A program made the position numbers and the translations under genes. Shown in pieces: positions 12,907-52,661 of a stretch of 64,000 bases of DNA. Origin of the DNA: Dysidea avara. Its lineage: Eukaryota; Porifera; Demospongiae; Dictyoceratida; Dysideidae. A model generated the notes under the pieces. The model was given only the letters and a program-made list of their open reading frames with translations. It was not told the origin of the DNA and made no database searches. The stretch spans positions 5,018,359-5,082,358 of the forward strand of contig NC_089272.1 in assembly GCF_963678975.1 (NCBI RefSeq). The letters run 5' to 3'. Every line of letters begins with the position of its first letter. Position 1 is the stretch's first letter.

Positions 12907-14083
12907 ATGGCAAGCAATACAACAACTGACATTAGCAAAGTATCCTTTGGTGAGCTGTTAGCTAATAGAAAGTAACTTTCTGTACAAATTTATGATTACT
13001 GTTAAAAAGACAAGTCTAAAAAGCTCCATGTAATGGCTAATATCACTATATACCTTCTCTTATATTTATTTTCCAGATTTAGGCACAGATAGTACATACT
13101 CAGTACTAGTCACAGGAATTACTGGTAGTGGCAAGAGCAGTTTATGTAACTTCTTTTGTCACTCCAAAACAGCATTTTTGTCCAACAGTGGGTTTGCTTC
13201 AGTAACAAGTAAAGCTGGTGCTGCAATTGCTACCATTAATAACCACAGAGTTAAACTAATAGACACACCAGGGTTTTGTGATGATTATGAAACAGAACAA
13301 GAGCACATGATGGAGATTGGAGAAGCTATTTACCTGGCTAGAGATGGTGTGAATGCTATTTGTTTGACTATTAATGCAGATGCAAGATACACAAAGAGTG
13401 AATCTAACACAATCAAGGACTTGCTAGAGTTGAAAGCAATATGGCCCTTTACCTTCGTTGTATTCACTAATTCTGGGGCCTTAGGTGCAACTGAGGAATT
13501 GCAGAAAAAACAATTACAGGAAAACCTTAGTGAAGAGCGTTGTCCACAGCTTCTACTAGATCTACTGAAAACTATTAACTATCGCTTCTTACTTGTAGAG
13601 TCGATAAACGTCACTGATGATCATGGAGCCTACTATAGCTGTAAGGTTACAGAGCTTCTTCAGATGATTGAAGTGATACATCAATCTAACAATCGAAAAC
13701 TATACACAAATGAAATCTTTATTAAGGCCAAGGAAATGGCTGACAGGGTTGACAAAGAACACCACTCCCTACCTCTGAAAATGCAAAAGGGATCACAGGA
13801 AAATATGCCAATCAACACCAAAAAAACAGAAGAGCAAAGCAATGATGTCACCAGCAAGCCAACAGTTCATGCACCAAATACAAGACAGGTTAAAAATGTA
13901 GAGAAAAATGAACCGAATGGTGAAAGAATATATGAAGACGTTCAAATTAAAGCCTTAAAAACAATACAAAAAGAACTAAACGATCTTCAATCAGAAGTCA
14001 AAGAGTTGAACAAGAAAAGAAATAAACACTGGTACAACATTTTGAGCAAACACATGACAGGGAAAGAATGTTCTATTCAGTAA
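12907..14083 (+). CDS. AIG1/GIMAP-like GTPase 1 (subfamily A)
   Basis: Two exons, 12907-12949 and 13077-14083 (127-bp intron, phase 1), give 349 residues. The first exon holds only the N-terminal 14 codons (MASNTTTDISKVSF). The GTPase domain has a P-loop 'GITGSGKSS', switch-II 'DTPGFCDD', and the AIG1-specific box 'GVNAICLTINADARYTK'. The usual guanine-specificity motif (N/T)KxD is replaced by 'FTNSGALG'. A charged, helix-prone region follows, then the ending 'KHWYNILSKHMTGKECSIQ', whose last four residues (CSIQ) form a CaaX box. GIMAPs are immune-associated GTPases that assemble on membranes in vertebrates; the role here is inferred. First of six head-to-tail copies. The reading frame opens at the P-loop exon, so the short upstream exon decides the start. 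Confidence 0.9.
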
Positions 14084-14396
14084 CCACACAAATATACTGT
14101 ACCACTTCAAGCACATGTATACACCATATAACACATTTCTGTATAATATGTAAATATCTTAATTGCAAATAACACATTCGCAGCATGTCTTCATATTGTA
14201 TGTACCTCTATACTAAACAGTTTGCACAAATTTAAAAGTGGACATTAACATTTACAGTTTACTGCGCTAATATTTCATTCACTTAATTTCTACAGTATGA
14301 CATATTTAGTTTGCAAGTTGAATTGCATGATTCACTTGATACTCTGCATACACACCAACAGTGCTAATGATGCAACACCTTTTATTAGGTGGACAC

Positions 14397-14404
14397 TATA
14401 TAAA
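14397..14404 (+). promoter_or_regulatory. TATA box of GTPase gene 2
   Basis: TATATAAA lies 86 bp before the ATG at 14490. Genes 3 and 4 have comparable boxes at similar spacing. Confidence 0.5.
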
Positions 14405-14489
14405 CACAAAATTATCCATTTTTAATAATACTGTTAAAACTAAGGCTCTATATGTACAAAAGACAAAAGAGACTCCACAATTATTAGCT

Positions 14490-15732
14490 ATGGCTAGCAG
14501 TAGTTTAAAACACGATTGTGAGCTTTCTAAAGGTATGTCCTTTTATATGACTCAACTCATTAGGATCAGGCATATTTGTTGTCTTAGATGATCTTGACAG
14601 CAATTATAAATATTCACTGCTGGTGACTGGTGTAACAGGGAGTGGAAAAAGCACACTGTGCAATTTTCTGTGCTGTTCAAAGAATGCTTTTGAAGCTAAT
14701 GCTGGCTTTGCCTCTGTAACATCTAAAAGTGCTGCAGCCACAATCACCATGCAAGATATCCGACTGAAATTGATAGACACCCCAGGCTTTTGTGATGATT
14801 ATGAAACAGAAGAAGAGCACATGAATGAGTTTGGTGAAGCACTGGTGCTTGCTAGTAAAGGAGTCAATGCAATTGGCCTTGTCATCAGTGCCAAAGCTCG
14901 CTATACTGCTAATGAAACTAACACCATCAAGTATATGACTGAATTTCCAGAATTGTGGCCTTACATGTTTGTCCTTTTCACTAATGCAGGTTCAATTGGA
15001 AGCAATGAACATGAACGCAATACTAATTTGCAAGCAAATTTTAAGCATCCCAGATGTCCAGAAGCATTAAAGGAGCTCATGCAAAAGGTTAAAAATCGCT
15101 ATGTTCTTGTGGAGTCTGTCAAACCCTCCCAGAATCCTGAAGCTTATTATCAAACAAAAACAACACAGCTGCATTCCATGATTGCTGAATTGGACGAGGC
15201 CAACAACCATACACTGTATACTAATGCACTCTTCAGGAAAGCAAAAGAAATGATAGATAAGCTGATAAAGGAGAAACAAGAGGCAGAAACCGAGTTAGTA
15301 CGTTGCCAAACTCAAGTACAAATGGATACATTGAAGCGGAAAGAAAAGCAGAAAGATGCTGAAGAAGCCAAACAGAAAACAAGTCATTCTAATCTAGAGT
15401 TAGAGCACACACAGAAAGAAGCAGAAGAAAAGAGAAGGTCACATTATGAACAACTGAGTGAAGACGAAATGGCAAAAGAGCAAGAAAAAGTAAAAATACA
15501 GAATGAAATTGAAAAACAACAACAAGAAAAGGAATCGCTAGAACAAAGTTTGATAGAAGAAAAACGAAACAAAGAGTTGGTAAAAGAAGCCAATAAGGAA
15601 GCAGTAGAAAAGTTGAAAGCGGAATTAATTAAGGAACGTCAACTTAACGAACAGCTAAAAGGAAAGCGCAATAGAAAATGGTATAACACTCTAATGAAAA
15701 AGACAACAGGAAATGAATGCGTACTTCAATAA
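14490..15732 (+). CDS. AIG1/GIMAP-like GTPase 2 (subfamily B, CaaX)
   Basis: Exons 14490-14532 and 14588-15732 (55-bp intron, phase 1) give 395 residues. Exon 1 reads MASSSLKHDCELSK, nearly the same as in genes 4 and 6. Domains: P-loop 'GVTGSGKST' near residue 25, 'IRLKLIDTPGFCDD', AIG1 box 'GVNAIGLVISAKARYT', G4 position 'FTNAGSIG' without the aspartate, then 'NRYVLVESVKPS'. From about residue 215 there is a long Glu/Lys/Gln-rich coiled coil of about 150 residues, then 'RKWYNTLMKKTTGNECVLQ' with CaaX box CVLQ. The GTPase domain is closest to genes 4 and 6. Likely prenylated and membrane-attached; the function is otherwise inferred from the GIMAP family. Confidence 0.92.
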
Positions 15733-16124
15733 ACAAATAACATACGTATAAGTGCATTTTGTTGATTGGCTATACACATATTGTAATACAGTTTTCACAT
15801 ACACTTACAAGTACACACATTAATGTACTTCCTGTTTAATGCATAATGTATATGTAGTTATACCTTGTCATTATGGAATTGCTTAATAATGCACTATTGT
15901 TGCCATACAATCAAAATAAGATATTCTGTGAATCAGCCACATCACTATAATAACAAGTATGCATGTATGGCCATGCATGCAACGATCGTGATTTCATTAT
16001 CTGTAGCAACTACATAAGCTTGATCTGTTTCCAAGAATTACAATTATGCATTTGAATTTGTTTCCATGGCAACTGCATTCCAAGAAAACACATTTTAAAT
16101 TTGGATGCATGTTTTAGTCCAGAC

Positions 16125-16132
16125 TATAAAAG
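16125..16132 (+). promoter_or_regulatory. TATA box of GTPase gene 3
   Basis: TATAAAAG lies 90 bp before the ATG at 16222, a good match to the metazoan consensus. Confidence 0.6.
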
Positions 16133-16221
16133 GACTCCGTTTTTCTTATTTGCACACTTGCAAAAAGTCCACAGCATAATTATTTTGGCAAAAGTTTAGT
16201 GTTGTAGAGGAAACTGAAGAA

Positions 16222-17475
16222 ATGGCAGATCGATACTTTGGAGCTATCAGGGGCACAGTCACTCATAGTTAGTATCAATCATAAAGTAGTTTGTGATATT
16301 GAATGTAACAGCTGTTAAATGTACTTGTCTTTGTAGATCAATCTGAAGATTACGACTACTCGCTACTGATAACTGGAATTACTGGAAGTGGAAAAAGTAG
16401 TCTATGTGGTTTTATTTGCTGTGACAAAGAAGCATATGTATCCAAGCCAGGCTTTGCATCAGAGACTGCAAACAGTGCAGCAGCAATTGTTACACTGCAA
16501 GACAAGAAGATCAAACTGATTGATACTCCTGGATTTTGTGATGATTTCGAGACAGATGAACAACATATGGCACAAGTGGGTGAGGGAATCTTCTCAGCCA
16601 GAAAAGGAGTTAATGCAGTAGGGTTAGCAATTAATGCTGGTAGCCGCTATACAAAGAATGATACCACAGTAATCAAAGAGATATCAGAAATTAAGAACCT
16701 GTGGACTTTCACGTTTATCATTTTCACCCATGCAGATTCTTTAGGAGATACCGATGATGAGCGCAAAGCCAAGCTGAAGAGTAACCTTGCATTGGATAGA
16801 TGCCCAGAAGCTTTGAAAGACCTTATGAAGAGGATAAAACATCGTTACATATTGGTTGATTCAACCAACAACACAGAAGAATACCACCGTGCAAAAGTTC
16901 AAGAGATAGTAGAAATGGTAGATGTCATTTATCTGGACAATGATCGCAAACTGTACACCAATGAACTATTCAACAAAGCCAAGGAGATAGCAGAAAAATA
17001 TGCTGCACAAAAAAAGGAAATACTTGGAAAGAAAAAGATGGCTGAACTTAATGCCATATTTGAAGCAGAAGCAGCAAAGCAAGCAGAAGTAGTTGCAAAA
17101 CAAGCACGTATACAAGAGCAACTTGCAAAACAAAAGGAACTGAATCTGAAAAAAAGGCTGGAAGGGGAAGAACTACAGATGCAAAAGCAGCGAGAAGAAA
17201 AACTTGCTCAAATAGAAAAAGAAAAACTACAATTGCAGGATGAAAAGGAAAAAATCCAGGATGAAATTGCTCAACTAAAGCAGAAGGTTGCAGAACAGCA
17301 AGATGATGAAGCGCATCAGTTGGAAACGCAAGCACAACAGGAAGCCTTAGAAGAACTTAAGAAGGAGTTTAACGCTCTTCGTGTGTCAAACGATGATCTA
17401 AGAAAGAAGAGAAGCAAGAAATGGTATGGTGTTTTAACAAGAAAATCAACAGGAAAAGAATGCGTAATACAATAA
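16222..17475 (+). CDS. AIG1/GIMAP-like GTPase 3 (subfamily A, CaaX)
   Basis: Exons 16222-16267 and 16337-17475 (69-bp intron, phase 1) give 394 residues. Exon 1 (MADRYFGAIRGTVTH) differs from all siblings. P-loop 'GITGSGKSS', 'KLIDTPGFCDDFETDEQHM', AIG1 box 'GVNAVGLAINAGSRYTK'. It is the only copy that keeps an aspartate at the G4 position ('FTHADSLG'). G5 region 'HRYILVDSTN'. The C-terminal half is a strongly charged coiled coil (QKQREEKLAQIEKEK-type heptads), ending 'KKWYGVLTRKSTGKECVIQ' with CaaX box CVIQ. The Asp suggests this copy may bind guanine nucleotides in the ordinary way. A TATA box lies at 16125. Confidence 0.92.
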
Positions 17476-17835
17476 TATTGATAGCAAACATTTTTAGAAT
17501 TAGCTATGATATTGCTTTGACATTTAGTTGTAACTATTTTCTGCACACATTTTAAAGAACCAAATTATATCTTACATATAAACACTTGTATGCACACAAC
17601 TATTTGATGTATCCATCTTCATTACATTGTTTCAGTTGCTTTCATGTATGTCTGCATTGTAACACTTGTACACATCTATTTGTATTCAATTTTGATCAAT
17701 AATATTTGTTAATTTAGCTACTGTAACAGTGACAGATTTGATGATGTAATGCTGTTGTTAGCTGCATGAACAACAATTGATATGATATGCATGTCTGCAT
17801 ATTTGCACTTAGACACATGAATCAGTATAATTAGA

Positions 17836-17843
17836 TATAAATA
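17836..17843 (+). promoter_or_regulatory. TATA box of GTPase gene 4
   Basis: TATAAATA lies 73 bp before the ATG at 17916. Confidence 0.5.
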
Positions 17844-17915
17844 CTGCATCGTGCATTTGCTCAATCACAAATAAGTTAGTGTCCTGTTGTATATACAGTA
17901 CCAACTACAGTGAAC

Positions 17916-19139
17916 ATGGCTAGTAGCACTTTGAAGCATGAAGTTCATCTCTCAAAAGGTATGTAGTCTGTTGATAAAATATCATTATTTAACCATTTTT
18001 GGTGGTACTTAGACTTGGAGAGCACATGTGATTACAGCTTAATGGTTACTGGAGTTACAGGAAATGGGAAAAGTGCATTTTGCAATTTTCTTAGCTGTTC
18101 CAAAACTGCTTTTGAGACTGGATGTGGGTTTGCATCTATCACAGACAAAAGTGCAGCAGCAATAATCACCATGCAAGGCATTCGACTTAAACTAATAGAT
18201 ACCCCAGGCTTTTGTGATGACTACAATGATGAAGATGAACACATGAAAGAATTTGGCGAGTCATTAGTACTTGCCAGCAAAGGAGTAAATGCGATAAGCC
18301 TTGTTATCAGTGTAAAATCACGATACACAACAAACGAAAAGACAACTATTGACAAATTGTCACAATTTCAAGAACTATGGCCATTTATGTTTATCATATT
18401 CACCCATGCAAACTGTCTTGGAGCTAGTGAAGAAGATCAAAAGAAAACTCTACAGTCAAACTTTGAAGCTGAACGATGTCCAGCAGCTTTAAATGATCTG
18501 ATGCAGAAAGTAAGCAATCGTTACATACTTGTGGAATCAATCAAACCGTCTGGCGACCCTGAAGCGTATTACCAAACAAAAACCAAAGAACTGCATGACA
18601 TGATAACTACAATACACAAAGCAGCTAATTACCAACTGTATAGCAACGAGTTGTTCAATAGCACAAAAGAGTTACTAGACAAGTTAGCAAAAGAAAACAC
18701 TGAAGCAAAAAACCAGTTGCAAATGAAAAAGAGTGAAACAGAAGAAAATATCAAAAAGCGATTAGAAGAAGAAAAGGTTTTAGAGCAGGCTAAACAAACA
18801 GCACAAACATCAGTAGAAAAACAAATAGAACTTGAGAAAACACAAGACGAAAAGAGACAACTACTATTAGATCAGGAGAAAGAACAATTGTTTCAAAAAG
18901 AAAATGAGAAGGAGAAAGCAAAACAAGAACGAGATGAAGTTTACCGTGAAAAAGAACGATTAGAGAAAGAGTTAGCAGAAAAACAAAAAATAAAGCAAGA
19001 AGCCATCGAAGCTTTGAAAAAACAGCTGAAGGAAGAGGGTGAAAAACAAGAAATGCTCAAAGATAAAGCAGAAGAGTCAAAAGAAAAGTCTAGCAAGAAA
19101 TGGTACAGATTTTTATTTAAGAAACCTACAAGTGCCTAA
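17916..19139 (+). CDS. AIG1/GIMAP-like GTPase 4 (subfamily B, no CaaX)
   Basis: Exons 17916-17958 and 18013-19139 (54-bp intron, phase 1) give 389 residues. Exon 1 is MASSTLKHEVHLSK, as in genes 2 and 6. The P-loop has Asn for Ser ('GVTGNGKSA'); then 'IRLKLIDTPGFCDDYNDED', AIG1 box 'GVNAISLVISVKSRYTT', and G4 position 'FTHANCLG' (Asn for Asp). The coiled coil is long (about residues 215-370). The C-terminus reads 'KKWYRFLFKKPTSA' and stops where its siblings continue with TG(K/N/S)EC plus CaaX. The stop codon abuts a tandem repeat (19138-19230), so the tail was probably lost by repeat-associated change. This copy is likely cytosolic, or anchored only by dimerising with siblings. Confidence 0.9.
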
Positions 19140-19230
19140 GCACAGAAATAGAATAAGCTAGAAATAGAATAAGCTAGAAATAGAATAAGCACAGAAATAG
19201 AATAAGCTAGAAATAGAATAAGCTAGAACT
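19138..19230 (+). repeat. Short tandem repeat at the end of GTPase gene 4
   Basis: About five and a half imperfect copies of a 16-18 bp unit, AAGCTAGAAATAGAAT, with two variants reading AGCACAGAAATAGAAT. It begins at the stop codon of gene 4. Confidence 0.8.
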
Positions 19231-19636
19231 ATGTACACTGTAACTATAGTATTCTTGTGCACATTTGGTAAATAAGCAAATTTTCTAGAGAAAACAAATT
19301 ATTTGATGTTATTTGTTGTTTTTACCATCAACTATACATAATATAAAGAGATGAGCTCACCAAGGAAGAAGAATATACATACGTATAAGCAAAACCTCCA
19401 TGCACAGACCACTAGCATGCATGCAGACTACTCAGTATCTGCAGGCATGCATGCATACATATTATATGTTTACACTTGTGGTGCATCATGCATGCACAGA
19501 TACTTATTGTGTCACTAGTGCATACACCATCACTCTTACTGTATTTGGTACTTTAACCAACACATCTATTTATTACCTCATGATAATTGAAACTTCATAA
19601 ATTTAGTTTCTTTAAGCAGAAATAGTTGTCTTCACA

Positions 19637-21010
19637 ATGGCCTCCTATAAAGTGCACACTACAAAAGATACCTCATCTAATGGTAAGCTAGTTGATGTAT
19701 AAAGCATGTTGCTTAAACATAACTATTAAATCTATATACACATTTTGTATTAATCTACAGATACAGAAGAGGTATATGATTATTCTCTTATGGTTACTGG
19801 AGTAACTGGAAGTGGTAAAAGTAGTGCATGTAATTTTTTCTGCTCTGAAGAGGTCTTTACAACAAATGAAGGATTTGCATCAGTGACTGCTAAAACTGGA
19901 GTTGTCATCAAAAAGGTTCTTGGGAAAACAGTTAAGTTAATAGACACACCTGGCTTCTGTGATGAATATGAGACAGATGAAGATCACATGAAAGAACTAG
20001 GGAGGGCGATTTTTCTTGCTAGAAAAGGAGTACATGCCATTGGCTTTACAATAAATGCTGGAGGAAGATTCACAAAAAATGAATCAAGAACTTTCAAGGA
20101 AATGACAAAATTCAAAGAAATCTGGCCCTTTACATTTATCCTTTTCACAAATGCTGGAGTTTTAGGGGAGGATGAACAGCAACGTGCGTCACAACTCCAG
20201 AAAAATCTTGCGGCTGAAAGGTGTCCACAAGCTTTGCATGACTTGATAAAATGTGTGAACAATCGATACATACTAGTAGAATCTGTTGAACCAGCTGAAA
20301 ATTACCAAGCTTACTACAAGCAAAAGGCAAGGGAGATTTTACAAATGATTGACAAAATCCATGAACTAAACAGCCACAGATTATACACTAATGAACTGTT
20401 TGTTAAAGCAAGTAAGATGGTTGAACAGGCGCGAAAAGAAAAGGTGCAGAAGTCAGAGCAAACAGCTGTACAGACCCTTCAAGTACAGGTAAGAGATTTA
20501 AATAGAGAAAACTCACTCAAGAAAAGAAAGAGCTTTGAAAATCAGTGGTGGACTATTGAAAGAAAGAGGAGATCATTAGTGGAAAATGCAAACGCTTTGA
20601 AACTTGAGGCCATTGCAGCAGCTGACAAAATAAGAAAGGCAGCAATAGAAAAGGCAGAGCAAGATTACAAAGAAGCAATAGCAGCTGCAGAAGAAGAAGC
20701 CTCAAGTCAAATAAAGCTGGCAAAAATGGACGAAGCAACAAAGAAAAAAGAATTAACACAAGAAAGAGACAAAGATATCACTAAAGAGGAAAATATCATA
20801 AAGACTAACACCGAAAAGCTGAACAACGATGTACTTAAAGATGTACAAAAGAAGTTAGAGAAAGAGGCTTGTGATGAGGCATTAGAGAGTTTAAAACAAG
20901 AACTACAACTACTCCGCTCACAAAACAAAGAACTGATGAGTCAAAGGAACAGAAATTGGTATAATGCTCTTAGCAATAAAATGACTGGAAAAGAATGTGT
21001 CATACAATAG
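19637..21010 (+). CDS. AIG1/GIMAP-like GTPase 5 (subfamily A, CaaX)
   Basis: Exons 19637-19682 and 19761-21010 (78-bp intron, phase 1) give 431 residues, the longest copy. Exon 1: MASYKVHTTKDTSSN. P-loop 'GVTGSGKSS', 'KLIDTPGFCDEYETDEDHM', AIG1 box 'GVHAIGFTINAGGRFTK', G4 position 'FTNAGVLG' without Asp. After the GTPase domain come a basic stretch ('KKRKSFENQWWTIERKRRS') and an Ala/Glu/Lys-rich coiled coil ('AAIEKAEQDYKEAIAAAEEE'), unlike the other copies. The end is 'RNWYNALSNKMTGKECVIQ' with CaaX box CVIQ. Confidence 0.91.
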
Positions 21011-21278
21011 CAAATTGATACATACTATTCTTTGTGTGTAAACCATACAAAAAATGTTTATGCGTACACATTTAAATAATTATAGTTTGCACTTCATAAC
21101 GTACTGCACTGAAAAATCATTAAACTTTACACTTGAAAACCACAATTGAATTTCAAAGAAATATTATGCAACACAGCTGCACACACAGGATATACACAAT
21201 TCTTGGAATGTTATGTGGTAAGTGGTTTAGTATCCGTGTGTTTAACTAATAACACATATCTGTGGTCAACTCTCACCT

Positions 21279-21286
21279 TTTATATA
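21279..21286 (+). promoter_or_regulatory. Possible TATA box of GTPase gene 6
   Basis: TTTATATA lies about 95 bp before the ATG at 21381. The match is weaker than upstream of genes 2-4 but the spacing is similar. Confidence 0.3.
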
Positions 21287-21380
21287 GTATTGTTGTCTTC
21301 CAGTAGTTCAGTAATACAAGTTTATTAAAAGCAGCTCTATTGTTTATCAGCTACCTGAATACTGTGAATTCAAACAATAA

Positions 21381-22632
21381 ATGGCTAGCAGCAGCTTGAA
21401 ACATGATCTTAATCTATCAAAAGGTACTGTTTATCTTTCTTTATGCTACCATTGGCAGCTAATAAACATGTATTTTATTCTTTCATTTAGATCTTGAAAG
21501 TGGCTATGATTTTTCACTGCTGGTCACTGGAGTAACAGGGAGTGGAAAAAGCACAGTGTGCAACTTTTTCTGCTGCTCTAACACAGCATTTAAAGCTCAT
21601 GGTGGTTTTGCATCTGTTACAACTAAAAGCGCTGCAGCTACAATCAGCATGCAAGGTATCCGACTAAAATTGATAGACACCCCAGGCTTTTGTGATGATT
21701 ATGAAACAGAAGAAGAACACATGAATGAGTTTGGTGAAGCATTGATACTTGCTAGTAAAGGAGTGAATGCAATTTGCCTTGTCATCAGTGCAAAGGATCG
21801 ATACACCACCAATGAAACTAACACTATCAAGTATATGACTGAATTTCCAGACCTTTGGCCTCACATGTTCATCCTTTTCACTAAAGCAGCTTCCCTTGGA
21901 GCTGATGATGAAAAGCAAATCAAGCAACTACAGGAAAATCTTAAGAAAGAACGATGCCCGCCAGCACTGCAAGACCTTGTCAGGAAGGTAAGAAATCGCT
22001 ACATCGTGATAGAGTCTGTCAAGCCATCTAGTGACCCTGAAGCTTACTATCAGCAGAAAACCAAGGAACTACACGCCATGATCACAAAACTACATGAAGC
22101 CAATGATCACAAACTTTATACAAATGCCTTGTTTGTTAAAGCAAAAGAACTAATAGACAAATTAGTAAAAGAAAAAGAAGCTGCTAGTGAAGAATTGCAA
22201 CATCGACTTGCAGATGCTAAAATTAACGTACAAAAAAGGATAGGTGACCAAGAGTATGTAGCACAAGCCAAACAACATGTAGAGAAAGCCGATAAGGAAA
22301 GAGCAGAAGCTAAACAGAGGTTAGAAGAAAAGAATAGGTCGTTTAAAGAGAAAGCCCACCAAGAAGTTAAGCAGAAAAAAGAAGAGGCAACAGAGGCAAA
22401 GAAAGAACGTGACTTGCACTTTCAAGAGAAACAGATGTTGGAAAGAGAGGTAGCAGAAGGAAAAGAAAAGCGCAGAATATTAGAAGAAGCTCAACAAGAA
22501 GCCATGAGGATACTTAAAGAGCGGCTAGTATATGAGCGCAAGGTAAATGACGAGTTAAAGCAAAAGCGAGACAGAAAATGGTACAAAGTATTGATTAAGA
22601 AAACAACAGGAAGTGAATGTGTAATCCAGTAG
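21381..22632 (+). CDS. AIG1/GIMAP-like GTPase 6 (subfamily B, CaaX)
   Basis: Exons 21381-21423 and 21491-22632 (67-bp intron, phase 1) give 394 residues. Exon 1: MASSSLKHDLNLSK. P-loop 'GVTGSGKST', 'IRLKLIDTPGFCDDYETEEEHM' (shared almost exactly with gene 2), AIG1 box 'GVNAICLVISAKDRYTT', G4 position 'FTKAASLG' (keeps Lys, lacks Asp), 'NRYIVIESVKPSSDPEAYY'. A charged coiled coil fills about residues 210-370. The end is 'RKWYKVLIKKTTGSECVIQ' with CaaX box CVIQ. Nearest sibling is gene 2, so these two probably share the most recent duplication or a conversion. Last gene of the array; no seventh copy follows. Confidence 0.92.
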
Positions 22633-24653: not shown

Positions 24654-27600
24654 CTACAGTTCAGAATGATAGTCAAAAGACTTGTTACTATCACCGCGAA
24701 CACCTTTCCTCTTTGGCAGTACACCACCTTTAACATACTCCAACAAGAACTGATCTATCTGATGATAAGTGTGTAGAGTGACAACATCCTGTAGATAACA
24801 CACAAATGGTACATAAAAAGAGTTACTCTCATTTATGGTTCACAACAAACAAGCAGTTTACATGCATTATAAGACGTCCATCAGATTTTAAACAAAATAA
24901 TTTTGAAACAGTCCACAAATGGTAGCTATCCACACATACATACATATGCATACACATAAATTATTTCAGATTGACACATAATCTGTCCAAGCACTCCGAT
25001 AATTGAGATTGTAGACTGCAGGGATAATGAAACACCTTCATTTGAGTCTTTCTTGTGGCAACACTTCAATTTGTGGTAACCATTCACGTGGGCATTAATT
25101 TATTCCCACAATTGATTTCGGTCTGAGCTTGTATAAAACAAGCAGAGGGCGGTACCACTACCTCACTCACATCAAGGCCCTGCTTGCGTTGATGACTATT
25201 TTAGAAATGCAACCACATACCCGGGATACATTTCATTGCACACCGGTGTACATTAGATGTCTCCCTGTAAAGAGGTGTACAGTGGAACCTCAGTTATCCA
25301 AACCCCTTGGGACCAGAGGTGGTCCATAAGTCTGAAAAGTCCGTATCTCTGAAACTGTGTATAAATAACATTAAAACAGTATAATCAAATTTAAAAAAAA
25401 TATCAGTATTTTCAACTTAGAGGTGTACCGATATGGGTTTTGGTATGTACCGGTACCGATACCGATATCTGGATATTGATGCCACCAAAAGAAGCCGATA
25501 ACCGATAGCCGATCCGATATTTGCATTACAATCAAGTCATAGATGATCTATGTAAAATTGTACATTACTCACTTTATAACAACATGTGGATATATTCATT
25601 GCTCACTCTATACCTGCGGTGGTAGTGGTTTGGTTTTCAATTGTGCAATCCAGACAATTAGGCGCCCACAAACATTTTCATGAAGCCTTAAACGGATATG
25701 TCTACATTACTCCGCATTTTAACGGTTTGTACGAAGGCTGGTACAGCAAGTTTCCTTGGGTTACCCTGGGACTCTTTTTTTATTACAAGGGTACTATATA
25801 ACTGTTTCATTTTTAAAGACTGCGATAAGCTTTCCAGCAACAAACACTAGAATCATGCATGTTTGTATGGCTTCTTGTAGCGTAGCACTTGTTGGTAGAG
25901 TGAACAATAAGCCACTGGTACAAAACAGCCACATGCATAACGTAGATAACTAATATGTAATCCGTTTATGTACAAACCATTGTTACTGTATAAATATCGG
26001 TAGTGATATCGGTCCTCCTACTGTTCTGTACCGATACCAATATTACCATATCGGTGGCCGATATTTTAGCCAATCTGATTATCGGTAAACCCTTATTTCA
26101 ACTACCCTAATAGAACAGTCACTACTCTAATAGAGCAGTCATTTCCATAATTCGGTTAACCAAGAATCCAGATAAGTGGGGTCCGGATAACTGAGGTTCC
26201 ACTGTACATGGCAAATGCATCCTCTGGAATTCCTTTGATCTGAGGTGTCAAAGTGTTACATCTATCTATGTATACTGTACAGATAGCTACATGTACAGTA
26301 CCTGTCTTGGAACAAATTTTTCTTCAGGGATCTTCATTTTGGACTTGTAATATAGGACATTCTTGCTCATGGCTGAATCAGATGGCTCCAACTGTTGATA
26401 ACTGGCAGCACATTCTGCAGCGTCATTTAACCTACCAACTGGACACATACACACAAACGTTATTACAACTACAACACATAATGTACAAACACTAATACAC
26501 AGTACAGTGATGAGGCTAGGGTTTTTAACAGGGGGTATCTGAAAATTTAGTACTACAGTGGAACCTCAACTATCTGGGCCCCACTTATCTGGATTCTCGG
26601 CTAACCGAACTACGGAAATGGCTGCTTTATTAGAGTACCATACAGTACAAAACTTCGGCAGTAAAAAAGTTGGTAAAAACCCACTATTGAAAAAAAAACT
26701 TTGGCGAATAGGGCTTCACCTGAAACTTTTAGCTACCACGTATTGTACCGCCAGGATGCAACACCGCTACATGCGATTGCAAGTGATTAACAACTCACTA
26801 ATTATGAGGCATGGCAGCCGTTTCGATTGCGAATCTTTATCCCTCACATTGAGGAATGATGACTCACGATGGAAATGGCTGCCACACCCCTTAGTTAGCA
26901 AGTCTTTTAATTGCTTGCACTTACATGTAGCGACATTGCATTCGAGTGGTAGCAACTGTACAAGTGTAAGCATCGTTCGCTGGTTCTTGCAATGTCGAGA
27001 GCAATGTTTGGATTTTCATGAACTCTTGTGAGACAATGAACCTCATGATAATCGAAGGGAACGCTTAGAAAAATACCCACGATATGCCTGTCATGGTACT
27101 TCAATACCCATCCTTTCAACATGGCTAATCTGCTCATGTGATTTCTAAAAATAATTGGCAGATAAAACTTTGGCGATTGTAATGAAATTTGCCTAATTTG
27201 CCAAATTTTTACTATACGGTAGTGACTGTTCTATTAGGGTAGTTGAATAATACTGATATTTTTACCATTATCTATTTTATATTATACTGTACGGAGGGAA
27301 ACTTTGGAGGGAGAAAAATTTGGCAAATCAAGCAAAATATCAGTGTTGCAAAATAAAATTTGGCGAATTGTTAGCAAAGCACACGCCCTATTTAATTAAT
27401 TAGATTACTAATCGCTGTGCCTGGCCCTGAAGCGAGAACTTACAGAGTGCCACGCCTCTCAGCGGTTTGGCACCTGGAGTCAGCTACCAACTAAAAGGTA
27501 ATACCATATAGACAGTAGATCTACACCCTCTGGAATAGTGAATATCATACTTAATATGGTAGGACTTGCTACTTGTCATGCCCGTTTCGAGGTGAAGTTT

Positions 27601-30600
27601 AAGGATAACACGTGTACAGTAACTATAGCTACCTAGTGAGGTAGTCGAGGCAGGCTTGGCTTCATGCCTGGCCTACTATCCCTTGGTTGAATAGAAAATT
27701 GATTAGTTTGATGCTTGGTTTGCTATTTTCTTCGCCACCAAAATATTTGGATGGGGAAAATTTGGTGAATTCATGGTCATTCGCCAAATTTTTACGGCAC
27801 CAAAGTTTCCCTCCATACGGTACAGTTTCAGATATGGACTTTTCAGACTTATGAACCACCCCTGGTCCCAAGGAGTTCGGATAACTGTATGATATACTGC
27901 ACAATGATTTAGCTGAATGAAATAATGAAGCCAATTTAGCAGTATGCCAGCAAAAAATTTTAAGCTCTGAGATTAGATTTTCATTCACTTTTAATTAATA
28001 ATCACAGTCAACCCAATGCTTTTGTGAAGTAACCGTAGGGAATCCCAATCTATACTACTCCATCAGAGTACCTTAATCACTTTAGTGAAATCGGAATTGA
28101 AAAATATTGCTAATGGCTTAATGTACATATGCAATGCTAAAATATAGTGGTAATTTTCTAGTGTTCCACTGGTACAGAAAAATACCTACCGATCAATCCA
28201 ATACCGATACCAGGAACTTATAAGCGCTGAGCTCCTGCCGATACCCAGCAGTGAAATTTACTGATGCAGATAGCAATAACAAGAATTGCCAAATAATTCC
28301 ATGTTTGTTCATGGCTATATTGCTTGTAGCATTCACACTAGTGTTTTATGACAAAATGCGTATTTTTCAAGTTCGCTATATTTGACTGTTCTTTTAGAAT
28401 TTTTATTATGCTGCAACTGTCAAACATAATGTTAGAGTTGCACGTTCCTCAATGTTTAACAAAGCAAGTTCTGTACCTTTTTATGTTAGAATAACACTTA
28501 ACACTACTTCCGGCCTGATATACCCCAAGGTTTGCTAGCATAACATTAACGATGATCATTGGTGCAAGCATTTATTAGTCAGTATCAGAACAGCTTAATA
28601 ATCAATACCAAATAGACAACATCGACTCCAATCCAATACTGATCTGATTATCAGTGGAACACTAGATTTTGCTACAGCTATAGGCTGGATAGAGTCAACA
28701 CAGCATTAAACCTGAGCTATAGCTAGACTGCTATGGAGTTAAAATTTAAAGGGAGTTTTGACCCAACTCCTTTAAGAATCCCATCACCACTGCCATTTTT
28801 AAAGTTTGAAAAAAAAACACAGCATGATTAATATACCTTAATTACGCTTAATATTTTCACCTACCAGTGTAGTACACAAACTGGAGATAGCTGAATATGG
28901 ATGCCAAGTATCCTTTTTGTTTCACACCATTAACAGTGCTCATCTGTCTATAACAATCAACCTTACACTGGACCATCGGCTCAATGACTTTAGCCATCAA
29001 AGTGTACACATCCTCTGTTGTAGCCTCCTGGTCCCGGTACATATTGTCATTACTATCACTGACATTTATATACATTACATCTTCACAGTAAAGTCTACAC
29101 TCGTCCATGTCTTTCTTATACAGAGAAAAACAAGCCTCAAAGTTGTCGCTTGCTTTCAGCCATTCTTTCTGTTTATAAGCACTCATGCCATTCTTGTAGT
29201 ACTCCTGTTGAGCACTAACCCCAGATTCTCTGAACACCGTAAAGTTATTAGAACTAATCTCCAGTCTCTGACGATAAAATGATACACTACCCTTAATGCT
29301 TTCTTCATCTGGGTGCTTAAAGAAGTAAGAGAAAGCACACTTAGCACCTTTATCAGATTCATTCACCTGTAGTGTGAGAAGAGCAGACAATGAATAGCAA
29401 AAGACAGATTTGTGCCATATAACACATGTGTGTACAAACCAAACATACTGTACCTTCAGTAATCATAGAGAGGCACGACTACACATTGTAATACGATATA
29501 TTATGATCATTTCTAGCTATCGTGTTTACACAATTAATTATGAATTGGGTGCCATTCTAGTTGTGTGTGCTGCTGCTATATTACACTAAGTGAGTGTGTT
29601 GTATTAGAGTAATTGAACAGAGTAATAGCGGGAAAATATTCTGTTAACATAAATGATGCAAATCTTGGCCTTCTTCAACTATAGCATAGCGTCATCATTC
29701 TGTTGTAAAGAAACTATGGGTACACACTTCAGAGTTTCTATATGATGCACTCCACAAAAGTGTACCAAAAATTAACAGTAACATTGACCACACACAACTG
29801 ACATGATAGGACTGTACCTGGAAGTAGGAGTACTGCAGATAATCATAATATTTGGCTTTGTTTATTTCCTTCAAGATGAAACTGGATGTGACTTTCAATT
29901 CCATTCCCAAGTTCTCCTTCTTACAACGTGACACACAATTTCCTTCTGCAGCCATCTTCAGATATTGCTGCACAAATGGCATACGGCTGCTCACTCGGCT
30001 TAGCAAGGCTTTCTGCTTGTCCGTTAAATTGGGTTCAGATTCAGCCCGACATTGCTGCAGACACGAGATGGACTTGTTACGATATTCTTGATGTAGAGGT
30101 ATCACTGGTTCCATCAAGGCAATAGCACCATTGTGCTCATTTAGCGTATAACTTTCTGTTGCTTGTCTGTATAGTGATGTAAAACTCTGACTGTTCTCTT
30201 CCAAAGATCGACCACCCTGCAAGTAATCAAATGATTACACACCATCTGTGAATTGTGCTGCACACATTATGTGCTACTGTGTTATGTAAAGTTATGCCTT
30301 ATTTTACTCTATTTTTATTAAAATTTAGTACAGCAAGACCTTATCAACGATTTATTGACAAGTTGCAAAACATACAGCTGCACATACATGTGTTGTATCT
30401 ATTTTACTGTTGAAACGCACTGCCATTAGGAGAAATATGATGCTAATCCATTTTAAGGAGGAAAGTGCTACTGAACTGCATGCAAAATAAATGTAGCAGT
30501 AAAATATTTGCATGAAACTCATATCAAAACATCAGGGGCCAAACAAAATGAAACATTTTATATGTACGTACGTATGTACATATATGTAGATACCTAATAT

Positions 30601-33600
30601 TTCAAAGCAGACAAAAGTAAAAGGCACATAACTAAATACACTTCTAAAAAGTAATTTGCTATCGATGGATTTAATGCATACATTGTTTAACCAGATACAA
30701 GGTATCACATTACTTATTCTTCGTACAAAATAAATATTACTACCTTAAGCTCACCTTAGCAATGTCAGGAAAATTTAGCAATTGCATGCTGAGAGAAAAT
30801 TTAAGCAGTGACTGTTTCGTTAAGAAGTTCAGACCTTATCACATATGTACATAACTTTTGAGATATATTTATTTCACAGAGTTTATCTACTCATAAACAC
30901 AGGGGTTTAATTATGGGCGATACTTGAGAGAATGCTAAGAATCTTCATGGAAAATAATTCCTTGCCGCTAAATTTGTCCTAACTAAAAAGCCTTGCTTAA
31001 GGTAGTTATTCCATCATATCTTACCAGGTGCTGGTCACCTGGAGCCTCCTTCTTGTATGAAACAAGAGGGGAGAAGTGGACCAATTGCTGTAAAAATAAT
31101 AATAATGCTCATAAGCACTGAGTATAAGGGACCTATTGTACCCAACACACAAGACAATATCTAAGTACAGTAGTGTAGAGTCGGGTTGTTAAGTACATGT
31201 ATCTATTAAGCGCATATTATTTGTTAAGCGCATATACATTTCTTGTAACTAACCATGGATGATAAGCGCACATGGCCAAATGCGACGATTAAGTTACACA
31301 CAGCAAAAAACGGCAAGAAAAGCTGAAAGTACTGAAAAATTACGTCTCCCTTGAGGTCTCCCTCACTATGTATACAGCAAATCAGCCATCTGGATAGTGA
31401 TAATCTTGTTTTCACGAAGGATTTTGCCCAGAAATGGAGTCAAATATCCTTACACACTGGCATGGTTACCAGCACAAACTATTAACTACTCTATTACAAC
31501 GTAGTGATTCCATGATACACTCACCATAATTATTTATTAGGCGTATGCACCTAACAGATGGTATGATTTTTACAAAAAGTTTTCTCCAAAAATTCTAAGC
31601 ACATGCGCTTAACAACCCGACTTTACGGGTATACTATACAGTGTATATTAGATGTACGTACAATACTAAGGTGTACGTATCCATATGTACATGCAGAGCA
31701 GCCAGAACTACAAAACTGAAGCAAGGAAGAAAGAACAGAATAGTACCATACATTAACTGGGCATAAATATGTATACATAAGAACGTACAGTACGTGTATG
31801 TAGAATAATAATGTTCATTACATCTCTTCAAGAAATACAGCAGCTCAGTAAAATATGTGTATCACAAGTACAAGGATTTTTTAGGGATGAAAGAAATAAA
31901 AAAGTAGTGAAACAAAGGAGGTTGCCTATACCTGAAGACATACTTGTGGATATGAATATGTGACCTAATTTTAGAAAACCGTCAATATACATACATGTAT
32001 CAAAATTCATTTTATTGGTTCTTTGCTGTCTACAGGGACAGAGGAATGGATTGGTTAAGTTTCAGCTTCATAAGTTAAGCAGTGTGGGAAATACAGCAGT
32101 AGACACCCGGACGAGCAAATAAATCAATATGTACAGAAGATATCGAGAAAATAATCTACAGGCGCTTACATAAACCATCATAACGTGCATATACAATGGC
32201 GTACGAAGTTGAATCTTTGCTTATTGTATTCGCCATGAATTTGTGAATCCACCAAGGTATAGTTTTTGCCAAAGGTATTCTTCTGTGATCCGGAAGGAAG
32301 GCAAATTCATTGAAGAAAAATCGTCGTAAATTCTTTTGTCACCACAACATAAACAAACGTCTGTAAATCAGAAACCCACATGTGTATGAAGATGTAACAA
32401 GTAGTTTTGAACTCCCTATGAATAGGGGAACACGATGATTCCCAGGATTTATCCACCGGAGTGTCAATTCACCGACCAGCAAGGCGATAAAAACTTGTGT
32501 AAATTTTTTCTGAAGCTTGTGTTTTTTACCCATTGTGTTTGAATGCATTTTATTACAAAAGTACTATTGTGTGCATATCGACGGTTTTCTAAAATTAGGT
32601 CACATATAGGAATTAAATGTTCACAAGTATATCTTCAGGTATGTATAGGCAACCTTCCTTGTTTCACTACTTTGGTCCTTTCCTGGTACTTATTTGTATA
32701 CACATTATTATGACTGGTGAACCCATGCATACTACATTTGAAGAAAGAATGGTACCAGGCAGTCCAGGATTATTATTTTCATCTGAAAACACACCCCAAC
32801 TATTAATTATTGAAAAATAGCGAAGTGTCTATTATGCTTTGTTATCAGCTATGTTCAACCCATTACACAGTGTTACAAACAAAGAATACTACGAGAAGGA
32901 CTTCTGCAATCAATCCAGCCACAATGGAAAATTTAGATGATTCCTGTTAGCTACGTACTAGCGTAGGGAGGTGATCATGTGTTGCTACCGCGAATTGTGG
33001 TACTTGCGCTGTCAACAAAGATAAATGGAATACAAACAAGGACAGTTCATGCATGAAGCATGCATTGTGGTATCCATAAGACACCTAACAGGCTGCAGCA
33101 AAGTTGAACTGCTAAGCCTTTAGCCGTTATCTAGTTATGTCAGTCAGTCAGACAGTCATTAGAAAATCCAAGTTGTAGCTACCTACTGGAAGTATTTCAG
33201 GGCATACTGAAGGCAATTTTTGGGTTTGTATATACCTAACCAATACTGCCAAGTCACCATTAAGGCAGACAAAAGCGTGTACTACACAGCACATGTAGAC
33301 GACACACTCACCCTGATGATCTTCACCATCCTAATATAAAATGTCAAGGTGGCATTTGGTGGGATCTTCTCACCTACTCCAGCCTCACCATAGCCCAGAC
33401 TAGCTGGGAATGTTATCCTTCTTCTCTCCCATAAACAAGTTCCCATTAATCCTCGGTCCATCCCTCGTATTATCAGACCTTTACCAAGAGCCACAATATA
33501 TGGAGTGTTGTAGTCAAAACTGTCAAGAAAGAAAGTCACACAAATGCACTGCATAATTGTCTTAAGTGAGTTATAAAATACATAGTTTAGTGAAACAATA

Positions 33601-35572
33601 TTGTCCATTACATGGTACCTCAATTACAATACATTGACACCTCTCTTAAAGAGGAGGGTGGTCAACTATATTACTAAGCTATTACAGTAAAGTATGAGTG
33701 TGTGTTGAATATACATAATATTATGTCGTTGTAGATGCTATTGTAATAAAATAAAACAAACCACCAGTACATCATAAGATTATGATGATAGATATACACT
33801 GTAGTGCACAAAAAAACACACGGCTAAACATTATTTGCTCAAAAAAATACACATGGATACTTAGAATATCTTGGCGGATCATTGTTTCGTTTACATATTT
33901 TAATCAGACTAAATACATACATATACAGTGAGTCACACTATATTCTATTGTTTGCATACAGTCTTGAATAATTTTTAGTGCTGATTACCACAAGCATATT
34001 AAATTTCATGGGTTAAATTTTTGTGGCTTATAAAAACATAAACAAAAATGCAAGTGTATTAAATTTTGAGGGTAAAAATTTTCGTGGTTTAATCCTGACA
34101 AGTATAGAAATTTGTGGGTTCAGAGTTATAGTTTACCTCACCTCAATGCTAGCGCTGTGATTGTTGGACTGGGCATGATGTGTACTTTGCAATACAATGA
34201 GGGAGGACGTATACTAAAACCAATCGCTCAAGCAACACATGGTCTCATGATGGATAGTGATGAAACAAACCATGTTTCACGCCACGGATGAATCTTACCT
34301 GCTGGAATAACTGGTCACAGATACTTGAAGAAATCCGTCCTGTGGTTTACAATCTGGCACTGTCGTCATGTCGCACATTAATGTCTACATTATTAGGATT
34401 CTAAGGAAGGTGCGTTGATGACTACAGTTCTCAGGTTTGCTCGAGGTGCTACGTGAGTTTCACGTGGATTACTTTTCATGAATTAGGTTAAAACACAATT
34501 TTATATATCACAAAATTTTCTACACTGTACTGCTGACACACAGGAATAATTCAACCTACGAGTGTGGTCAAACTGAAAGTCAACAGTCAACATGAAGAAT
34601 ATGAAACTCAAAACTATAACTATTGATTCATCATGAAGTCACAGGGAATGACTGCCCTTACAAACCTGAAGTGTATTTAAACTAATGTGGTATTGTTAGA
34701 TTATCTATTGTGTGCTCTAAACTCTTCTCCCCTGTTACAAGGAATCTTTACAAGGTCAATCTATACACATTAGCTGACCTCTACAGTGATATTATTAGAC
34801 CAACCATAGGAGCACAGTACAAGCCATACACCCCCTAACCTTTTCCTCTATATGCTACATTATTATCATACCAAACGTCTCATGTTACAAATGGTAACTC
34901 ATAAAACAAACACTAAATCATAAGGTAAAACCAATGCTGTATTCCAAGAGGTAGCCAACCTCCCACGCAAACTTCAAAATTGTGTACAAGAGTCCCAATA
35001 TTTAAGTATTTCAAAACGTATTTCTGTATTATTTCATGGATTTATAATTGGATTTCTCAGATAGTATACGAGTCCCAGCTTGTGAGCTACCCCTTGCTGT
35101 ATTCCAAATCTAGCACTGAGTACGAGATATATACAAGCAGACTAGTGCATGAAGTGCAAGCCCAACATTGTAGTTAACTCAAAGCAAAGAGTATTGAAGG
35201 TCAGGATAAAATTTTAGCGGGTCAATACTGTGACAAACAAACCTCTGTCTGCATGGCAGCCCCTTGCCATAAGTATAAAAATGTTAAGGAGGTGGCTGCA
35301 AAGCCCTTTGGCACATCAGAAAATAATTAATTACACACTTGTCATTAACCGTACCTCTTTCCAAACTCCACCCCGCTATCAAACAACCTCCCCACGTAGT
35401 GATAATGCATGATGTCGTTTGTCTTGGCACTGTCCACGCAGTCATCAGGACGATACAAGATCTTCACCTTCAAACCATCCCCCCAATCTTCCTCTGCAAG
35501 CGGGCCTGCCGCTGATGTCAGTGAGACCAGCACGGCACAACCAGTCAACAACCATACCAACCAACAAGCCAT
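24654..35572 (-). CDS. FKBP-CRTAP fusion: secreted prolyl isomerase joined to leprecan-family protein
   Basis: Seven exons read on the - strand: 35572-35355, 33519-33312, 31087-31025, 30216-29818, 29366-28865, 26438-26302 and 24788-24654. All have GT-AG borders, phases agree at every junction, and the product is 553 residues. Exon 1 encodes a signal peptide (MACWLVWLLTGCAVLVSLTSA) and the start of an FKBP domain; exon 2 completes it ('FDYNTPYIVALGKGLIIRG', 'LGYGEAGVGEKIPPNATLTF'). Exon 3 is a 21-codon linker. Exons 4-7 match CRTAP end to end: four CxxxC pairs (CLQQC, CVSRC, CRLYC, CKVDC), 'YYDYLQYSYF', 'YLQFVYYTVGRLNDAAECA', 'LYYKSK', and a tail 'DVVTLHTYHQIDQFLLEY'. There is no 2-oxoglutarate dioxygenase domain, so it is CRTAP/SC65-like, not P3H-like. 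It ends HSEL, close to but not matching strict KDEL-type patterns. CRTAP acts in ER collagen prolyl 3-hydroxylation. Two genes with an unseen end and start between 33312 and 31087 remain the alternative. Confidence 0.72.
25280..26204. mobile_element. Non-autonomous pogo/Tigger-type DNA transposon with nested hAT insert
   Basis: Terminal inverted repeats CAGTGGAACCTCAGTTATCC match perfectly over 20 bp and are flanked by TA on both sides, as in Tc1/mariner-pogo elements. It encodes no transposase. A hAT element (25418-26095) lies inside it, leaving only about 250 bp of its own sequence. It sits in the last intron of the FKBP-CRTAP gene. Confidence 0.85.
25418..26095. mobile_element. hAT-type MITE nested in the pogo-type element
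   Basis: Starts TAGAGGTGTACCGATA and ends TATCGGTAAACCCTTA (13 of 16 terminal bases paired). An exact 8-bp target duplication TTTCAACT lies at 25410-25417 and 26096-26103. The interior is rich in CCGATA/TATCGG words near both ends. Confidence 0.88.
26556..27887. mobile_element. Second pogo/Tigger-type copy, inverted, with inserted MITEs
   Basis: It begins TA-CAGTGGAACCTCAACTATC and is followed by the inverse of the right part of the copy at 25280. Its other end (27820-27887, GACTTATGAACCACCCCTGG...GGAGTTCGGATAACTG) matches the left part of that copy but lacks the last 11 bases or so. Inside are an insert at about 26640-27230 with CAAATTT/GGCAAA words and the MITE at 27288-27826. It lies in the CRTAP part, intron between 26439 and 28864. 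Confidence 0.7.
27288..27826. mobile_element. Nested MITE with GGAGGGAAACTTTGG ends
   Basis: The left end reads ACTGTACGGAGGGAAACTTTGG and the right end is the inverse, CCAAAGTTTCCCTCCATACGGTACAG. Both are followed inward by AAATTTGGC / GCCAAATTT. Non-coding. Confidence 0.65.
28159..28664. mobile_element. hAT-like MITE, TAGTGTTCCACTG ends
   Basis: Left end TAGTGTTCCACTGGTA, right end TATCAGTGGAACACTA, with CCGATA-type words just inside. No clear 8-bp duplication. It lies in the same intron of the FKBP-CRTAP gene. Confidence 0.7.
31176..31625. mobile_element. MITE with TAGAGTCGGGTTGTTAAG inverted ends
   Basis: Left TAGAGTCGGGTTGTTAAG and right CTTAACAACCCGACTTTA pair over 17 of 18 bases, and GCGCATAT/GCGCTTAA words recur inside. 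A lone related end lies at about 58940-58960. In the intron between exon 3 and exon 2 of the FKBP-CRTAP gene. Confidence 0.7.
31878..33165 (+). mobile_element. Foldback-headed repeat family, copy B
   Basis: Arms at 31878-31983 and 32579-32690 are inverted copies (GACGGTTTTCTAAAATTAGGTCACAT, AAGTAGTGAAACAA). They enclose about 600 bp, followed by a body with GACTGGTGAACCCATGCATACT and 'TTATGCTTTGTTATCAGC', and the tail GTCAGTCAGTCAGACAGTCATTAGAAAAT. The same order is seen in copies A and C. The open frame at 32339-32548 lies inside the loop and is not a known protein. Confidence 0.6.
33312..35572 (-). other. FKBP domain exons of the fusion gene
   Basis: Exons 35572-35355 and 33519-33312 (junction phase 2). 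Residues about 32-141 form one FKBP fold. Compared with FKBP12, the pocket keeps Tyr26 (HYHYVG), Phe36-Asp37 (LFDSG), Tyr82 (LGYGE) and Phe99 (TFYIR), but Trp59 is Met (RGMDRG). This resembles ER FKBPs such as FKBP7/9/10/14. No EF-hands follow. If this is a separate gene, its last exon has not been seen. Confidence 0.85.
34000..34530 (-). repeat. Dispersed repeat, uninterrupted copy of the one split at 2090-4420
   Basis: It contains AATTTTTGTGG / AATTTTCGTGG words near 34015-34090, the GCGCTGTGATTGTTGGACTGGGCATG segment, and the complement of the 2090-2370 piece. It lies in the first intron of the FKBP-CRTAP gene. Confidence 0.5.
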
Positions 35573-39265: not shown

Positions 39266-40699
39266 ATGGTGAACATGTCTCAGTTATGGACAATACTGTT
39301 GGTTGCTATGGTGACAACTTGTTTACTGTCCAAGGAAACACATGCAGACCACGTAAATCGAGGTAAAGGATAATGTCATAAAGGATTTTACTTGCCATCA
39401 TATTCCTATGTACATGTTGGTTTAGTAACATGTGTATTGTAGATGCAAAAAGACAAGAGTTCTGCAATGCCAGAAAGATCCCTTATTAAAATCAAAGAAT
39501 GTTTATTTCATAAGTTTCATGTTAGGAGCCACCAAAGGTGGTAAAACAACATGTAGCTTAATGTGCAACAAAGGAAATTACATTATTATATTTAAAAAAC
39601 CAGACATTTCCCCCAGTTTAAAAATAATTATTATGTACAGTGGAACCTGTTTGAGGTGGTCACTTTCAGGCCAACGTTGTGGGCCTTGATAGGCAGGTGA
39701 GTGTTTTAGACAAATCAATGAAGTTTTAGCTATTTGATGTATGTATGTTTGTGTAATCACGCTAGAAATGAAGTGCAATATATATCCATTTTAAAAGTTT
39801 CTCTACCAGCGTTGTTACTTGTGTATGGACATTTTACTCTTTTGTTCATTGGGTCAGCCATTTTTTCCCAAAAATCTCCAAGGCAACAAGCTCTTGTTGG
39901 TACATGCATACACTGTATACATGCACTGATCAACTCTTACAGTAAAATACATTGTGTAGGAATAGGACAGTATTTCTGTTAGTCAAGATAATTTTTTCTT
40001 TATACAGATTGTGGAAAAGCTAGACATAGGCCACAGTCATGTCTACCTGGAGACAAGCACAAAGATGTACCTTCCCCTGAGGGAGAAGATTACGCTGCAT
40101 GTCATATCTTTAAGTCATCAAGCTGCTGTACTGCTGATTTCACCCAACAGTTGTCTAGAGCAACAGTCACTAATATAGATGGCTTTCACTGGAACAGATG
40201 TGGAAACCTGTCCAAGAGCTGTGAAGAATATTTTGTCCAGATTGAGTGTTTTTATCGCTGCTCCCCAAATGTTGCTCACTGGCAATCAGCAACGTTCCCA
40301 TCAGCTTTCAACTGTGCCCCAGTATGTCGTGAGTTTTGCAACGAATGGTTCACTGCATGTGCAGATGATATGAGTTGTGTCAGTAATTGGATTACTGACT
40401 GGGATACAGCTGAAAATGGTTCTAATTACTGCCCAGTAAATAGCACTTGCTCAACATTCCGTGAGCTTTACACTGATGGTCGTGGACTGTGTGAAACACT
40501 TTGGGGTAACTCCTTCCTGTATTCCAATGATTCAGCCACTGACCCTAATCGACGGTGCCTAGTGCCATCATTTCCAGCTGGTCAAACCAATCCTAACGAT
40601 GAGGTAGTTATGAGGCTACTGGGAGGATGTTGTCAAGATGTAGCTACCACATCGATGGTCTTCACTTTAGTCATTCTCATTCTTACCTTGGTCATGTAA
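39266..40699 (+). CDS. Folate-receptor-family protein, probably GPI-anchored
   Basis: Exons 39266-39362 and 40008-40699 (phase 1) give 262 residues. Exon 1 is a signal peptide (hydrophobic 'LWTILLVAMVTTCLL'). Exon 2 carries the whole Folate_rec domain: 'CLPGDKHKDVPSPE', 'SCCTADFTQQ', 'FHWNRCGNLSKSCEEYF', 'ECFYRCSPNVAHW', 'PVCREFCNEWFTACADD', 'CVSNWITDW', 'LCETLWGNSFLYS', 'NPNDEV'. The cysteine and tryptophan spacing is that of vertebrate folate receptors and riboflavin-binding protein, with about 16 conserved cysteines. The last 17 residues (TTSMVFTLVILILTLVM) are hydrophobic with no basic tail, typical of a GPI-attachment signal. Likely a cell-surface vitamin-binding protein; the ligand (folate, riboflavin or a sperm-egg partner as in JUNO) cannot be read from sequence. 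N-glycosylation sequons include NLS, NGS, NST and NDS. Confidence 0.88.
39638..39720 (+). mobile_element. Solitary pogo/Tigger-type end in the folate-receptor-like intron
   Basis: TA-CAGTGGAACCTGTTTGAGG at 39636 onward, with no partner end; a fragment of the family seen at 1782, 25280 and 26556. Confidence 0.45.
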
Positions 40700-52621: not shown

Positions 52622-52661
52622 GAGGAGTCGGTGTGCATACACTTCATATAACTAATACATC

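Follow-up and report, generated by a model that had tools for sequence, protein, structure and literature searches.

The window, the whole 64,000-nucleotide stretch of Dysidea avara DNA analysed here, carries on its minus strand seven exons that join, from 35572 to 24654, into one open frame of 553 residues (1,662 nt including the stop; Table 1). AG/GT borders flank six of the six introns in this model. The encoded chain is ordered as signal peptide, FKBP domain, linker, CRTAP-type leprecan TPR region and C-terminal HSEL, with the N terminus (MACWLVWLLTGCAVLVSLTSAAG...) forming a signal peptide predicted by eye. The initial annotation had traced seven exons in phase through a signal peptide, an FKBP domain, a 21-codon linker and CRTAP; the length of the frame, the GT–AG introns and the Pfam domains described below confirm this single continuous FKBP–CRTAP reading frame. 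A six-frame search of the genome (550.8 Mb, 108 contigs), whose counts are lower bounds, located one copy of the FKBP half and one of the CRTAP half.

Table 1 Features of the FKBP–CRTAP locus (window positions; scores are splice-site scores)
Feature	Positions	Strand	Description
Exon 1	35355..35572	-	Start ATG, predicted signal peptide, first part of FKBP domain; donor GAG/gtacgg, score 8.9
Exon 2	33312..33519	-	Remainder of FKBP domain; ends in phase 0 at AGG/gtgagt, without a stop; acceptor 8.8, donor 10.6
Exon 3	31025..31087	-	63-nt linker of 21 codons, QLVHFSPLVSYKKEAPGDQHL; in phase 0 at both ends; acceptor 7.5, donor 9.1
Exon 4	29818..30216	-	CRTAP/leprecan TPR region begins; acceptor 8.4; no in-frame ATG ahead of the homology
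Exon 5	28865..29366	-	CRTAP TPR region with CxxxC pairs 3 and 4
Exon 6	26302..26438	-	CRTAP TPR region ends; acceptor 4.2, the weakest in the gene
Exon 7	24654..24788	-	CRTAP-type C-terminal part; ...DYHSEL then TAG (TAG included)
Interspersed repeat	31956..32609	.	Within intron 2; inverted ends of about 40 nt

The surrounding window is mixed in content. On the plus strand, a SET-like region and, after it, a C2H2 zinc-finger array (1–1401) resemble a PRDM9-type gene by eye only, and six tandem long open reading frames (13034–22629) resemble AIG1/GIMAP GTPases, the first of them matching Pfam AIG1 (2.2e-28). Further along the same strand lie a folate receptor family protein (39992–40696; Pfam 1e-48) and a cysteine-rich open reading frame of 306 residues with a hydrophobic start (52656–53573), intelectin- or fibrinogen-like by eye and with no Pfam match at 0.001. 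The abundant repeat in intron 2 measures about 650 bp, has inverted ends of 40 nt and is probably a non-autonomous DNA transposon; 39 further near-full-length copies were found among the 40 candidates scored of 8,797.

The first half of the chain matches FKBP_C (PF00254; residues 48–137, 1e-21), and its closest solved relative is FKBP2 (4nnr, 3.3e-27). The two cysteines that form a disulfide in FKBP2 are both kept, at DxC and GxC in the alignment, which fits the ER lumen. A six-frame search for FKBPs returned ten matches in the genome, one being the fusion locus. No second FKBP of the fused type appeared among the loci read, a set that excluded the match on C3 and in which short exons can escape. 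The nearest other FKBP is an ordinary FKBP2 on C10 (40% identity over 47 residues), whose domain is followed directly by a terminal DGEL. A copying of that gene into the fusion was considered and set aside, given the limited identity and exon borders that differ by eye.

Against FKBP2, six active-site positions were compared, their choice and numbering being those we take to apply to FKBP12. Tyr26, Phe36, Tyr82 and Phe99 are kept, and two are changed (Asp37 to Gly and Trp59 to Met); the Phe46 position reads Tyr in the same alignment. With two of six positions altered, isomerase activity is not assured: it could be weak, and the domain may have a binding role. The fused domain could accordingly be catalytically dead and serve only as a proline-binding or docking module, a possibility to which we give appreciable weight while leaning away from it. 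The two substitutions speak for a dead domain and the four retained positions against it. Some domains of FKBP65 carry Met in place of Trp, as here. FKBP65 is described as a collagen chaperone with isomerase activity in the available portion of PMC12794382.

Three groups of known proteins frame the comparison. With luminal FKBPs (FKBP65, encoded by FKBP10, together with FKBP2 and FKBP14) the fusion shares an FKBP domain, one that carries the two cysteines of FKBP2, the group member it was aligned with; it differs in having a single FKBP domain joined to CRTAP and no EF hand in its 553 residues by Pfam at 0.001. The immunophilins FKBP51/52 and FKBP6 likewise place an FKBP domain before TPR-like helices. 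They are cytosolic or nuclear proteins with ordinary TPRs, whereas the fusion has leprecan-type TPRs with CxxxC pairs and a predicted signal peptide. The third is the vertebrate P3H1–CRTAP–cyclophilin B complex (PDB 8k0e family): the sponge genome holds a CRTAP-type chain together with an oxygenase-bearing P3H and a gene of cyclophilin-B type, and differs in that CRTAP is fused to an FKBP-fold domain, the P3H lacks KDEL and the fusion ends in HSEL. In humans, FKBP and CRTAP are separate proteins.

The second half is covered by TPR_leprecan (PF23557; residues 175–497, 5.3e-45), with a weak TPR_P4H match inside the same region (1.6e-6) in which no single stretch is significant. Compared with solved structures, it matches human CRTAP best (8k0e_B, 4.9e-29, chain residues 44–383) and then P3H1 (3.5e-23), a CRTAP assignment made with SC65 (P3H4) absent from the PDB matches. 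The TPR region contains four CxxxC pairs (CLQQC, CVSRC, CRLYC and CKVDC), and that of the genome's P3H likewise contains four. Because the P3H TPR region itself scores nearly equally against CRTAP (109.7 bits) and P3H1 (105.7 bits), TPR similarity alone cannot separate CRTAP from P3H. Descent of the second half from a degenerate P3H is disfavoured by its C-terminal match to CRTAP and by the lack of any 2OG-Fe(II) oxygenase domain in the 553 residues (Pfam, 0.001). Judged by its sequence, the second half is a CRTAP-type leprecan protein, predicted to be catalytically silent. The signal peptide does not stand directly before the TPR region, as would be expected of CRTAP or SC65, but sits ahead of the FKBP domain; we class the product as a CRTAP/leprecan protein to which an FKBP domain has been joined. 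Pattern searches of microbial and viral contigs, poor places to look for an animal gene, gave 31 matches in GTDB and 3 in IMG/VR, none of them confirmed as a relative.

Candidate partners are encoded elsewhere in the genome. A P3H gene on C12 (C12:2828000-2837900) has a 2OG-Fe(II) oxygenase match (4.2e-10) and a last exon matching residues 641–698 of human P3H1. A near-identical P3H stretch, including neighbouring open reading frames, occurs on C4 (C4:33660500-33670400), where, by eye, two or more P3H exons differ from those on C12. A cyclophilin-B-type gene lies on C7. Its joined exon pieces, compared with solved structures, have as top match 8cu5 (an isomerase of unnamed type, 6.9e-54), followed by PPIB entries such as 1cyn (2.6e-53) and 8k0f_C (5.1e-53); among the best 60 of 108 matches, PPIB entries outrank PPIC, cyclophilin F and cyclophilin A. 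The region C7:3733500-3743400 holds two cyclophilin-B-like genes in inverted orientation, reading WLDTTH in one and WLDGRH in the other.

The joint between the halves bears on whether one gene or two are present. Both of its sides are in phase 0, so the frame is intact with or without the linker (532 residues when 31087–31025 is omitted) and the fusion is independent of that exon. Matching phases alone have a one-in-three chance of arising. By generic position matrices, the exon 2 donor is the strongest in the gene (10.6) and the exon 4 acceptor is strong (8.4). The linker had been credited with good splice sites from the outset, and this is borne out: with an acceptor of 7.5 and a donor of 9.1 it is the best phase-0-to-0 exon in the interval by splice score, equalled in 15 of 500 dinucleotide shuffles. 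It falls outside the intron 2 repeat, and the 40 candidates scored of 8,797 gave it no second genomic match.

Codon usage, trained on 1,687 codons from other genes of the same genome, points the same way. Per codon, the linker scores 0.259 in frame, as against -0.401 and 0.049 out of frame; the remaining six model exons score 0.072 to 0.175 in frame. Of 1,822 open non-coding 21-codon stretches, overlapping and so not independent, 3 reach the linker's value; 1,024 of 1,666 coding stretches score no higher. The measure is only moderately sharp, since the wrong frame comes near or above the right one in exon 1 (0.127 versus 0.148) and exon 2 (0.097 versus 0.072). A cruder earlier ranking had put the linker fourth among 101 candidates; despite this, both the position matrices and codon usage speak for it, and we set aside its being a chance exon. 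The linker exon looks coding on these predictions.

Neither half appears complete by itself. Exon 2 carries the FKBP domain up to its strong donor with no stop on the way; left unspliced, it would meet one after nine further codons. The exon 4 frame extends back no further than 30234 and contains no ATG ahead of the conserved region, so that the CRTAP exon has no in-frame start of its own. Each half is without what the other supplies. By contrast, the signal peptide and first TPR of the genome's P3H share one exon.

Two adjacent genes could nevertheless produce this arrangement: a small luminal FKBP whose terminal exon goes unrecognized, and a CRTAP gene that starts from a signal-peptide exon of its own within intron 2. 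The intron is about 3.1 kb long including the linker, and contains a repeat, which leaves room for such a boundary; a poly(A)-like signal lies within 600 nt of each of the eleven terminal-exon candidates past exon 2 (acceptor at least 6). Two hydrophobic first-exon candidates are in phase, 30513–30388 (donor 5.7) and 33294–33187 (donor 5.5). A third, 31112–31039 (donor 8.3), is out of phase and fits only the acceptors at 30166 (3.5) or 30190 (-2.3), the former of which would remove SFTSLY, a stretch similar by eye to RFDQLY of the P3H paralogue. Codon scores are negative for all three: -0.439 and -0.341 in two scorings of 30513–30388, -0.493 for 33294–33187, and -0.222 and -0.059 in two scorings of 31112–31041, against 0.072 to 0.259 for the model exons. 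Both thresholds, for donor and for hydrophobicity, are passed by 30513–30388 alone, and 68 of 300 shuffles contain one or more in-phase equivalents; the 'hydrophobic peptide' of the third candidate is the T-rich acceptor tract of the linker. The statement in the initial annotation that no second signal-peptide exon was found therefore needs qualifying, as mechanical candidates can be found (two in phase, one out), but all score negatively, and we judge a separate CRTAP signal-peptide exon weak on codon scores and shuffle frequency. Two genes would also leave the coding look of the linker unexplained, and we consider this arrangement improbable.

A single locus might instead give both outcomes, a long fused message and a short one, coding for FKBP alone, that stops within the linker exon or past it. 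Beyond the linker donor, 13 codons lead to a stop ending at 30983, and positions 30911 and 30873 carry poly(A)-like signals. The read-on stretch scores -0.060 in codon usage, the donor it would bypass is strong, and the short product would end in ...SKAF, with no KDEL-like end. We see such dual output as unlikely, if somewhat less so than two separate genes. The reading we favour, with good though incomplete confidence, is one gene for a putative secretory-pathway chain made of a luminal FKBP, a short linker and a CRTAP-type leprecan protein.

The ends of the sponge proteins bear on how such a chain might work. Its HSEL terminus is one that we take to fall outside the strict PROSITE ER pattern. 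The genome's P3H stops at DMKT, with AATAAA directly after it in both copies, and has no KDEL. In vertebrates, KDEL on P3H1 retains the complex, according to the portion of PMC12794382 available. HSEL is called KDEL-like in an extract of a 2026 paper, in which the protein bearing it is reported to lose activity once HSEL is removed (PMC13324453), and part of a review gives the last two residues of KDEL the most weight in receptor binding (PMC9220330). As P3H ends in DMKT and not KDEL, the complex may be held in the ER by the HSEL of the fusion; the task of retention may have passed to the fused CRTAP from P3H.

In the mechanism we propose for the one-gene chain, the signal peptide ahead of the FKBP domain would carry the whole fused protein into the ER. 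There the CRTAP half would pair with a P3H, as vertebrate CRTAP does with P3H1, and would thereby place the FKBP domain beside the procollagen chain, near the site of 3-hydroxylation. The FKBP domain could bind or isomerize prolyl bonds before or after that step, and the C-terminal HSEL would return the complex to the ER, the job done by the KDEL of P3H1 in vertebrates.

The fusion may plausibly act as an isomerase built into the 3-hydroxylation complex. The fuller proposal, in which that isomerase is combined with a retention signal shifted from P3H to CRTAP and the chain represents a Rosetta-stone fusion of the FKBP65-type and CRTAP/P3H branches, is one that we hold as finely balanced. The idea that FKBP–CRTAP stands in for cyclophilin B is only partly borne out: the presence of a cyclophilin-B-type gene in the same genome weakens replacement, and two of the six active-site positions of the FKBP are changed.

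Published work touches both branches. Loss of human FKBP65, CRTAP, P3H1 or cyclophilin B leads in each case to brittle-bone disease, as the accessible text of PMC12794382 has it. SC65-like similarity is noted in sponge and placozoan proteomes in the section seen of PMC4132317, where FKBP6 is handled apart, and 3-hydroxyproline is traced back to sponges in extracts of PMC3086908 and PMC3973637. Among the matches listed from the open-licence literature, titles and abstract openings describe no FKBP–CRTAP chain.

A fused chain would offer one protein in which the coupling of isomerization to 3-hydroxylation, and contact between the FKBP and CRTAP branches, could be studied. Its occurrence in an animal that retains a P3H and a cyclophilin-B-type gene would suggest that FKBP and CRTAP are functionally linked and, if the proposed role is true, prolyl isomerization would be tied directly to collagen 3-hydroxylation.
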